Assembly (NCBI RefSeq): GCF_009660225.1
Contig: NZ_CP045920.1
Span: 1-64,000 of the forward strand
Reading direction: 5' to 3'
From: Pseudactinotalea sp. HY158
GTDB taxonomy: Bacteria > Actinomycetota > Actinomycetes > Actinomycetales > Beutenbergiaceae
DNA: 64,000 bases
Shown here: piece after piece, positions 29 to 56,813 of the stretch
Position numbering within the stretch: position 1 is the stretch's first letter
Layout: every line of letters begins with the position of its first letter
Position numbers and translations under genes: made by a program
The notes under the pieces: model-generated
Seen by the model: only the letters and a program-made list of their open reading frames with translations
Database searches by the model: none
Told to the model about the DNA's origin: nothing

Positions 29-152
29 GGCTGTGGATAGACCGTACGATGGACACTTCGCCCACTCGGATCCCGACGCTCCCGCCGTCCGGACGGCCGC
101 GTGAAAACTACATCCGTGTCATACCCACAGCTGTGGATAAGGTTGTGGATCC
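29..152. promoter_or_regulatory. DnaA boxes upstream of dnaA
   Basis: Three DnaA-box-like nonamers lie before the dnaA start: TGTGGATAG at 32-40, TGTGGATAA (reverse complement of the consensus TTATCCACA) at 132-140 and TTGTGGATC at 143-151. They probably mediate autoregulation of dnaA or form the upstream part of the origin. The boxes at 132-151 would fall inside the coding region if dnaA began at GTG 101, which argues for the downstream TTG start. Confidence 0.7.
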
Positions 153-1689: not shown

Positions 1690-1916
1690 ACGTCTGGCCC
1701 AGATCCCCGCCATACACAGCTGTGGACAACTCTGTGGACAACCGTGGAGGAAGCGTCCAGACCGGTGGATAACTCCCTGTGAATCCGTGGACAGAGAACC
1801 CCGCCGTTGAGATATCCACAGACCGCCTCGACTCACACACAGGCCGGTCCGTCGTCGATCCACACCCCGGTCCAACCTCTGACCTGCATGGACGCCGGTT
1901 ATCCACATGATCCACA
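1690..1916. other. oriC: oriC: DnaA-box cluster between dnaA and dnaN
   Basis: The 480-bp dnaA-dnaN gap has no gene and is crowded with DnaA-box-like 9-mers in both orientations: TGTGGACAA at 1721-1729 and 1733-1741, GGTGGATAA at 1764-1772, ATATCCACA at 1812-1820, a perfect TTATCCACA at 1899-1907 and TGATCCACA at 1908-1916. Relaxed boxes with GTGGACA are typical of actinobacterial origins. The region 1917-2113 carries the dnaN promoter and leader, with AGGAAGAAGGAG at 2091-2102. Confidence 0.9.
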
Positions 1917-54943: not shown

Positions 54944-55885
54944 GTGACCGACTACCCCTCCGCCCCCAATCCCGGGTGGCGCCCCGAGCAGCCGGGCCAG
55001 GTTCCGCCGCCGTCGGCGGGATGGTCCGGCGGCCCGGGCGGCGGCACTCCGGGGTCCCCGGGGCAGGGGCAGCCGGTCTGCCCGCGTCACCCCGACCGGG
55101 TCAGCTTCGTGCGCTGCCAGCGCTGCGGCCGGCCGGTCTGCCCGGAGTGCCAGCGGCAGGCGCCGGTCGGCGTGCACTGTATCGACTGCGTGCGCGCCGC
55201 CCAGAAGCAGGTGCCGGCCCAGCGCACGGTGCTCGGCGGCCGGATCACGCCGAGCCGTCACCCCGTGGTCACCCAGGTGATCATCGGGATCAACGTGGCC
55301 CTGTTCCTGCTCGGCTACGTCGTTCCCGGCCTCACATGGAACCTGATGTTCGCGCCCGTGGTCGGCGAGACCGAGCCCTGGCGGATCGTCACGAGCGGGT
55401 TCCTGCACGCGGGCATCTTCCACATCGCGTTCAACATGTACGCGCTGTGGATCGTGGGCCCGTTCCTGGAGAAGATGCTCGGGCGCTGGCGGTTCATCGC
55501 CCTGTACCTCCTCAGCCTCATCGGCGGCAGCCTCGCGGTCGTGGTCTTCTCGGCGGGCCCCTCGGCAGACAGCTGGTATCAGGGCGTCGTCGGCGCCTCC
55601 GGGGCCGTGTTCGGGCTGTTCGGGGCGATCGCGCTCGTGCTGCGCAAGACCGGGCGCAATGCCCAACAGATCCTCGTGGTCATCGGGATCAACGTGGTGA
55701 TCTCCTTCGTGATCGCGGGGATCTCCTGGCAGGCGCACGTCGGTGGCCTCATCACCGGTGGCGTGCTCGGGCTCCTGTTCACCAAGCTGCCGCGCGAGCG
55801 TCAGCACGTCGGCGGCGTCATCGGTGTCGTCGCCGTCGCGGCCGCCCTCGTCGCGGGCTTCGTCGCGATGTACGCCGTGAAGTAG
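54944..55885 (+). CDS. Rhomboid family intramembrane serine protease
   Basis: A 313-aa protein. An N-terminal Pro/Gly-rich region is followed by a small zinc-binding B-box-like motif CPRHPDRVSFVRCQRCGRPVC and CPECQRQAPVGVHCIDC (about residues 46-83), then six or seven helices. The catalytic serine is in GVVGASGAVFGLFG (GxSG) and the histidine in SWQAHVGGLITG; HIAFNMYALWIVG carries the family's HxxxN. Starts at GTG 54944, 13 nt after ppiA. Confidence 0.93.
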   Translation: MTDYPSAPNPGWRPEQPGQVPPPSAGWSGGPGGGTPGSPGQGQPVCPRHPDRVSFVRCQRCGRPVCPECQRQAPVGVHCIDCVRAAQKQVPAQRTVLGGRITPSRHPVVTQVIIGINVALFLLGYVVPGLTWNLMFAPVVGETEPWRIVTSGFLHAGIFHIAFNMYALWIVGPFLEKMLGRWRFIALYLLSLIGGSLAVVVFSAGPSADSWYQGVVGASGAVFGLFGAIALVLRKTGRNAQQILVVIGINVVISFVIAGISWQAHVGGLITGGVLGLLFTKLPRERQHVGGVIGVVAVAAALVAGFVAMYAVK

Positions 55886-55971: not shown

Positions 55972-56161
55972 CCGTCCACAGGGTTGTCCACAGCTGTCCA
56001 CAGAGCCCCATGCTTATCCACAGGTTGCGGCGTCATCCTCAGGTTCATCCACGGCGACGTGGCGGATATCCACCGGTGGGGCCGCCCTTATCCCCAGTTA
56101 TCCACAGCTGTGTCCACACCTGGGGATAGTCACACGGCTGTAATTCCACAGCTGTGGGTAA
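55972..56161. other. Second dense DnaA-box cluster, non-coding
   Basis: This gene-free 190-bp stretch has two perfect TTATCCACA boxes (56014-56022 and 56098-56106) and several near matches: CCGTCCACA 55972-55980, TTGTCCACA 55984-55992, CTGTCCACA 55994-56002, TTATCCCCA 56088-56096 and TGTGGGTAA 56153-56161. Most share one orientation. The density equals or exceeds that of oriC at 1690-1916. It could be a second part of the origin, a DnaA titration site or a leftover origin. Confidence 0.75.
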
Positions 56162-56567
56162 CGCTGTGTACAGATGTACGAAGAACCTGCGGGTGACAGC
56201 GGTCGGCGCCGAGCCCGGGCGGGCGCCCGCGGAGATCGCACCCCGCATCCTCACGTGTCTTCCGCGCTGCGGATCGACGCCATGAGAGTGCGCCCGGGTG
56301 GGGACCCGTCCGGCGGGCGGGCCGGCCGGGCGCCATGGGCACTGTGGGCACTGTGGGCACTGCGGGCGCTGTGGATGCGGCGTCGGTGCCCTCGATGCGG
56401 GTGAGCGCCGTCGGGGCCGTCAGTATCGTGAGGGCCGCCAGTATCGTCAGGATCGTGAGGGCCGCGTGGTCCGGGGAGCGTCGTCGTCGACGGGACCGCT
56501 GCGGGAGGGAGCCGTCCGGGCCGGGACCGTCATGGTCCCGACTCGGACAGGGGCGAGGGGTGGGCGC
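56162..56567. repeat. Gene-free region with short tandem and direct repeats
   Basis: No supported gene. It contains four near-perfect tandem copies of GGGCACTGT at 56337-56372. A second direct repeat, CAGTATCGT and GATCGTGAGGGCCG units, spans about 56420-56465. There is no spacer regularity, so it is not CRISPR. The region separates the DnaA-box cluster from crgA. Confidence 0.6.
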
Positions 56568-56813
56568 TCAGCGCCAGCGCATGGTCATGATGAACCCGGC
56601 GAACACGAGGGCGAAGCCGATGCCCAGGTTCCAGTTGCCGATGCCGGGGACGGGGTATTGACCGTTGAACACGTAGGTCGCGACGATCCAGGCCAGGCCG
56701 ACGAGGCCGAGCGTGACCATGACCGGAACCCACCAGACCGGATTCGGTACGGCCTCGGTCGATGCCGGTGGCGGCGTGTAGGTCGACTTCTTGCGGGGCT
56801 TCGATTTGGGCAT
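56568..56813 (-). CDS. crgA: Cell division protein CrgA
   Basis: An 81-aa actinobacterial divisome membrane protein that interacts with FtsZ and penicillin-binding proteins. A basic N-terminus MPKSKPRKKSTYTPPPAS precedes two helices, VWWVPVMVTLGLVGLAWIV and NLGIGFALVFAGFIMTMRW, joined by the loop NGQYPVPGIGNW. AGGAG lies 7 nt before ATG 56813. Its position near the origin, beside DUF881 and sortase genes, is conserved. Confidence 0.94.
   Translation of the reverse strand: MPKSKPRKKSTYTPPPASTEAVPNPVWWVPVMVTLGLVGLAWIVATYVFNGQYPVPGIGNWNLGIGFALVFAGFIMTMRWR

Follow-up and report, generated by a model that had tools for sequence, protein, structure and literature searches.

The rhomboid-crgA intergenic region

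The window analysed here, the first 64,000 nucleotides of contig NZ_CP045920.1 from Pseudactinotalea sp. HY158, carries a dense cluster of DnaA boxes at 55,972-56,173, which we regard as a candidate DnaA-control element outside oriC. The cluster is held in a convergent intergenic region of ~685 bp, between the stop (55885) of a rhomboid-family membrane protease gene (54944..55885, + strand; Pfam PF01694, E 4.5e-31) and crgA, a cell division protein gene (56568..56813, - strand; Pfam PF06781, E 1.2e-28). It is located ~54 kb away from the dnaA-dnaN region, in which both genes were identified by Pfam, the dnaA frame spanning 101-1633 from its first possible start.

Between 55972 and 56161, seven boxes match TTRTCCACA at 8/9 positions or better, starting at 55984, 55994, 56014, 56088, 56098, 56110 and 56153. 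Three of them are exact, namely TTATCCACA at 56014 and 56098 and TTGTCCACA at 55984. Additional sites score 7/9, and a weaker box at 56165-56173 extends the cluster beyond 56161. The original prediction, made from the letters of the window, of two perfect TTATCCACA boxes and at least five near matches within 190 bp of non-coding DNA between the rhomboid gene and crgA is therefore borne out. The left part is a head-to-tail array on the + strand (55972..56074) with boxes at 55972 (7/9), 55984 (9/9), 55994 (8/9), 56014 (9/9), 56033, 56045 and 56066 (7/9), followed by the 8/9 box TTATCCCCA at 56088..56096 (+). The boxes from 56098 to 56173 are grouped around a palindrome at 56130-56143. Within the left array, successive starts are 10-12 or 19-21 bp apart. 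Counting all boxes of at least 7/9, the starts are stepped by 10-12 or 19-22 bp, with + strand boxes between 55972 and 56118 and minus-strand boxes thereafter. The array as a whole is ~400-600 bp from the crgA stop.

The density of boxes is far above expectation. The window holds 16 matches to TTATCCACA with at most one mismatch, against a mean of 2.15 and a maximum of 6 in shuffles. Throughout the genome, a single contig of 3,652,490 bases, exact TTRTCCACA occurs 20 times: three times in the cluster, three in the dnaA-dnaN region and once at the dnaA 5' end, the others being scattered. With up to one mismatch the motif occurs 396 times and its reversed pattern 326 times; by arithmetic from the genome count, ~0.02 such boxes are expected per 190 bp, compared with the seven observed. 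The genome has 45 head-to-tail TCCACA pairs, five of them in the cluster, versus 9 for the reversed-pattern control. Since the dnaA-dnaN region also contains seven boxes of at least 8/9, between 1721 and 1965, the earlier comparison of the density with that of oriC is a fair one. Several good boxes in a short non-coding stretch, outside but near oriC, are what characterizes a DnaA-box cluster, and this is what the locus presents.

Conservation of the boxes beside crgA

To our knowledge, the once-per-cycle control of replication in actinobacteria is poorly understood. The crgA or rhomboid loci of relatives (80 from the class set and 40 outside the class) were taken from a subset of the crgA-bearing genomes. 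The box count covers 96 loci, leaving out the window (L009), L022 and L142-L144, the last three being second copies of G023, G022 and G019. The counts of the core and palindrome described below cover 98 loci, with the window included and L142-L144 left out, and hence also G023, whose L030 has no crgA match. Loci without a crgA match (L014, L015, L016, L019, L021 and L030) were left uncounted, and the thresholds for box, core and palindrome were set after some loci had been viewed.

Within 300 bp 3' of crgA, at least one box is found in 90/96 class loci and at least two in 79/96, so the boxes are indeed conserved in relatives, which the original prediction had proposed as its check. Control windows with two or more boxes are rare: 1/612 farther downstream, 3/276 on the other side of crgA and 2/1920 dinucleotide shuffles. 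The boxes are also sharply confined, averaging 1.41, 0.83 and 0.39 per locus in successive 100-bp bins 3' of crgA and at most 0.04 in each bin thereafter. Outside the class, at least one box is present within 300 bp in 27/40 loci and at least two in 15/40; in the 600 bp on the opposite side of crgA, none of these 40 loci has a box. In family f28, four to five boxes are kept in 6/6 loci. Thirty genomes have crgA and rpmH on one contig, and in 29 of them the two genes are 13.8-57.9 kb apart, G091 being the exception by linear distance.

The three-box core and palindrome P

What is conserved is a composite in which two boxes face each other at a distance of 23-24 bp, a third box lies between them, and a palindrome, P, abuts the group. 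In the window, the three-box core (56098..56129) is composed of box C (TTATCCACA, 56098-56106, +), box B (GTGTCCACA, 56110-56118, +) and box A (CTATCCCCA, 7/9, 56121-56129, -), with the outer facing boxes 23 bp apart and steps of 12 and 11. Box A is abutted by P, TCACACGGCTGTAA (56130..56143), which has one mismatch to TnACACnnGTGTnA, the approximate consensus of the palindrome adjoining the core. On the other side of P is a weaker, mirror-image core (56142..56173; score 21, steps 11/12) with boxes at 56142 + (AATTCCACA), 56153 - (TTACCCACA) and 56165 - (CTGTACACA); as read off the sequence, the two cores are approximately dyad-symmetric around P.

The core was searched as one box facing two opposite-strand boxes, with steps of 8-16 and 10-15 bp and a score out of 27. 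A score of at least 23 is reached in 79/98 class loci, including the window, and in 0/980 base shuffles. The steps are 10/13, 11/12 or 12/12 in 68 of these 79 cores, the window core being 11/12. At a score of at least 21, a core is present within 600 bp 3' of crgA in 91/98 loci, versus four matches in 454,383 background bases, and it is absent from the same interval in L017, L025, L035, L119, L128, L132 and L133. When a wider stretch is considered, G016 has a core with P at 9/10 behind the rhomboid gene and G067 one with P at 7/10, ~1.6 kb from crgA; in G025, none of the three geometries is found at a score of at least 22. The 10/13 core occurs in all 79 measurable Mycobacteriaceae loci (L236 is too short).

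P is likewise enriched. At 8/10 or more of its fixed positions, it is found within 400 bp 3' of crgA in 80/98 loci, compared with 24/445 control windows and 82/980 shuffles; at 9/10 or more, the figures are 57/98, 1/445 and 3/980. The window is not among the 80 loci because its P is 424 bp from the crgA stop, at the far end of a distance that ranges from 1 to 424 bp across loci. Outside the class, P at 8/10 or more is present in 22/40 loci versus 3/159 control windows. The positions of P appear sharper than they are, since the sites were chosen by match. By itself P is uninformative genome-wide, P-like matches in its own genome being about as frequent as reversed controls (32 versus 28 strand hits). 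The exact 16-mer is found in 7/60 genomes, in three of them apparently away from both crgA and the rhomboid gene. Two or more tandem P-box units, identified partly by eye, appear to stand beside crgA in L011, L012, L013 and L355.

The two halves of P pair about as often as shuffled halves do, which favors a protein-binding site over a hairpin. Among 82 loci, positions 2/13 pair in 27 (shuffle mean 29.2) and positions 6/9 in 41 (43.8); positions 7/8 are slightly high at 42 (35.3). Positions 3/12 pair in 74/82, equal to the shuffle maximum (mean 72.2), owing to one site.

When the 82 loci with P in 600 bp are aligned on P, the outer facing boxes are on the side away from crgA in 51, with the middle box on the + strand in 30 and the - strand in 21; in the remaining 31, such an arrangement was not found around the chosen P. 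We had considered that the N and R core types might be inversions relative to crgA, and this was dropped, as the P-aligned outer boxes are mostly fixed and it is the middle box that turns. Mirror boxes at the expected offsets around P are present in at most 14/80 loci, so that the dyad symmetry of the window is not general.

The composite across genomes

For a genome-wide search, the composite was written strictly as TCCMCAN{13,16}TGKGGAN{4,8}ACANNNNTGT. This pattern was drawn from loci overlapping the 196 class genomes searched, an overlap on which neither its near single copy nor the empty reversed control depends. It matches in 100/196 genomes at 103 places, exactly once in 97 genomes, and the reversed pattern matches in 0/196. 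In the genome of the window, the sole match is at 56101-56141. Within 600 bp 3' of crgA it is found in 57/98 loci, of which 44 have one orientation, 9 the opposite one and 4 both, compared with two matches in 463,956 background bases.

The composite is within 1 kb of crgA in 77 of the 84 composite-bearing genomes that have crgA among the matches listed; the other 16 of the 100 have no crgA place among those matches. The seven exceptions are G173, G128, G064, G144, G179, G067 and G100. In G064, a 1.4-Mb genome, the composite (L280) is placed at a rhomboid gene (PF01694), at its 3' end, with crgA elsewhere, and in family f26 only G100 matches, away from its crgA. At the level of the phylum, the strict composite occurs in 23/149 genomes and the reversed control in none; outside the class it occurs in 17/136 genomes, in 10 of the 17 beside crgA.

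Relation to known DnaA-binding sites

The closest parallel is mycobacterial. Rv0011c is CrgA, which places the Rv0010c-Rv0011c region beside the same gene as the locus considered here. DnaA binds in vitro to oriC, Rv0010c-Rv0011c, the region upstream of dnaB, Rv3843c-RVnc0040 and rpmH-dnaA, and the homologous regions are bound in vivo in M. smegmatis (PMC7738170). The Rv0010c-Rv0011c site is a cluster of box-like sequences with a palindrome described as two box-like sequences; its mutation changes cell length, and the authors saw no obvious counterpart in other species (PMC7738170). Like the window element, it sits beside crgA and combines a box cluster with a small palindrome; the window element differs in its convergent rhomboid neighbor on the left and its longer array. 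The likeness to Mycobacteriaceae is based on 79 other loci, the published M. tuberculosis and M. smegmatis sites being outside the compared set. At 8 uM, HigA2, which reads ATCAC-N-GTGAT palindromes, is reported to bind the Rv0010c site, which coincides with the DnaA interaction site (PMC11205783). Judging from the consensus of the mycobacterial loci, we infer that the HigA2 palindrome may be the mycobacterial form of P.

The window element also resembles, as DnaA boxes near but outside oriC, the clusters of S. coelicolor and B. subtilis. One S. coelicolor cluster is called H69, and the cosmid of that name carries crgA; this cluster may correspond to the crgA locus. The clusters of both species are cited as repressing untimely initiation (Smulczyk-Krawczyszyn 2006 for S. 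coelicolor, Okumura 2012 for B. subtilis; PMC4585315, PMC5742627), and the available sections of the two citing papers mention no P. E. coli datA is comparable as a box cluster outside oriC to which the same dosage idea applies, and it needs IHF (PMC5742627). In the E. coli stretch taken as datA, no core scores 21 or more.

DARS1 and DARS2 have one box facing two boxes of opposite orientation (PMC5742627), and the window core has this one-opposite-two topology as well. The spacing differs: it is 14/12 in both E. coli DARS cores, which were located by their boxes, in contrast to 10/13, 11/12 and 12/12 here (11/12 in the window), and 14/12 occurs in 0/79 class cores scoring at least 23. Membership of the DARS class was rejected on this spacing. 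A published account of this element across actinobacteria was not found in a search of titles and abstract starts, with most subscription journals outside its reach.

Function of the element

We consider the patch to be a conserved origin-proximal DnaA-control element, a sink or inactivator with an architecture of its own and predicted DnaA binding, and assign this a probability of roughly 0.5. The reading is supported by the box statistics, the class-wide conservation with its controls, the near single copy and the position beside crgA, together with the DnaA binding reported for the mycobacterial region beside crgA and the repression for which the S. coelicolor and B. subtilis clusters are cited. 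DnaA would load on all three core boxes and on the additional tandem boxes, and a putative partner protein would bind P next to them, so that a fixed nucleoprotein complex, probably with the partner at P, would form outside oriC. Such a sink or inactivator would lower free active DnaA and damp re-initiation; because the site is close to oriC, it would be duplicated soon after initiation and could act in this way. We infer DnaA binding in this species, the protein partner at P and the negative sign of the effect, the last by analogy with the S. coelicolor and B. subtilis clusters and E. coli datA. The datA/DARS-like role proposed in the original prediction survives and is strengthened: the boxes are conserved in relatives, and DnaA binding is published for the mycobacterial region beside crgA.

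Several points weigh against this reading. The strict composite is not found in 96/196 class genomes, including all sampled members of families f27 and f28, and in 41/79 Mycobacteriaceae loci just one box within 300 bp reaches 8/9, the remaining two of the core being weaker. For a pure sink, boxes would suffice, with no call for a fixed geometry and a palindrome. In addition, mutants of the mycobacterial site are reported to behave like dnaA variants with a length phenotype likened to that of hypomorphic dnaA alleles, and dnaA mutants are reported not to differ in initiation rate (PMC7738170). These two observations fit a positive element better than a sink. As to the sign, the Streptomyces and B. 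subtilis reports point to repression, and the phenotype of the mycobacterial mutants tends toward the opposite.

A positive, DARS-like element, possible but in our view doubtful, would be one in which ADP-DnaA assembles on the core, the protein bound at P helps, and DnaA leaves nucleotide-free, reloads ATP and promotes initiation. The topology shared with the DARS1 and DARS2 cores and the hypomorph-like site mutants speak for it, and a helper at P would parallel IHF and Fis, whose flanking sites matter at DARS2 (PMC4245941). The difference in spacing does not, nor does the presence of a core at the dnaA-dnaN region and at dnaA, which makes the core unspecific to a reactivating site. A purely local role seems unlikely, in which the patch, as a DnaA roadblock or a dyad hairpin, would serve transcription or its end between the two genes. 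The patch does sit between gene ends, and the + strand of 56088-56176 has a more stable fold than its shuffles, with z -3.1, the minus strand giving -1.95 and the left array +0.52. Across 85 loci the element as RNA gives a median z of -1.32 and -1.41 on the two strands, with z < -2 in 24 and 29 loci, compared with a median of -0.33 and z < -2 in 5/82 for control stretches, and positions 3/12 of P reach the shuffle maximum of pairing. The facing boxes alone can produce this folding signal, however, and apart from positions 3/12 the halves of P pair no more than shuffles allow. At the locus, neither a terminator-like nor a promoter-like consensus site was found, and there is no Rfam match at the gathering score. 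A terminator, promoter or RNA element was not supported by consensus, Rfam or covariation of P, even though the dyad does fold as RNA. The middle box is found in both orientations, the distance from P to the crgA stop varies widely, and the G064 element lies at a rhomboid gene without crgA, none of which suits a local role; furthermore, expression of Rv0010c and Rv0011c is reported to be unaltered in dnaA mutants (PMC7738170).

It is rather improbable that the patch is a site of chromosome organisation or segregation, at which P would recruit a putative organiser of the oriC region with DnaA as an accessory. P is much commoner at the locus than in controls, crgA is near rpmH-dnaA, and several members of the family have, by eye, more than one P-box unit. 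The partner of P is putative, however, and 18/98 loci, including the window with its P just farther out, have no P at 8/10 within 400 bp. A second, bipartite or leftover replication origin, the last two raised in the original prediction, is very improbable. In box density the patch is on a par with the dnaA-dnaN region, and its most AT-rich 50-mer (46% GC, at 56139), within the most AT-rich 0.5% of the window, exceeds every 50-mer of the dnaA-dnaN region in AT content (at best 52% GC there); this AT-richness does not count against an origin, although the stretch overlaps boxes and P. The GC skew, profiled in the window alone and noisy, has no clear turn at 56 kb, so that a bipartite origin gains no positive support from what are weak tests. 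A leftover origin split by inserted DNA is disfavored because an ordinary box cluster persists between dnaA and dnaN, the second cluster is still found next to crgA in most class loci, and crgA remains within tens of kilobases of rpmH, as described above.

Returning to the DnaA-control element, we would lay even odds on a broader proposition, that Actinomycetota carry a dedicated, approximately once-per-genome DnaA switch beside crgA or the rhomboid gene. It would consist of the three-box core and a P read by a conserved partner, and the DnaA site mutated in clinical strains of M. tuberculosis would be one instance. If true, the element would be the phylum's own answer to datA and DARS, and the mycobacterial site beside crgA, left without a parallel (PMC7738170), would belong to a deeply conserved composite. 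The defined core and palindrome make the element testable in many species, and P could serve as bait for a putative partner of DnaA.

Related sites elsewhere in the genome

A three-box core with the spacing of the window core is also located in the dnaA-dnaN region (1710..1741), with no P within two mismatches beside it. A related composite lies at the dnaA 5' end (108..152), with the P-like CTACATCCGTGTCA (108-121, two mismatches) and boxes at 121 +, 132 - and 144 -; since the dnaA frame opens at 101, the composite precedes the gene only where translation begins at a later start. The same spacing at 1710 and 121 implies that the core alone is a general DnaA module. In 30 rpmH-dnaA loci searched for core and P, most have a 12/12 core, and an adjoining P of at least 7/10 is evident in one (L305). 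In G128, a stretch similar to the 108-152 composite (L352) is found ~20 kb from crgA.

On the opposite side of oriC, ~47 kb away, a second box cluster (L146, G000:C1:3605346-3605577) immediately precedes a dnaB frame; it probably corresponds to the site that DnaA binds upstream of dnaB in mycobacteria. Counting this cluster and the composite at the dnaA 5' end, four of the five sites reported in mycobacteria have a likely equivalent here, as judged by sequence.

Four one-mismatch boxes (L149, G000:C1:118594-118695) precede a glutaredoxin-type (NrdH-like) frame, nrdI and the gene for the large subunit of ribonucleotide reductase, a hint that this enzyme may be under DnaA control. At G000:C1:3344029-3344116 (L148), an exact TTATCCACA and TTGTCCACA stand 12 bp apart, with a 12/12 core of score 25, and three flanking frames have no Pfam match. 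A loose group of boxes at G000:C1:3502825-3503128 (L147) adjoins a NUDIX-domain frame.
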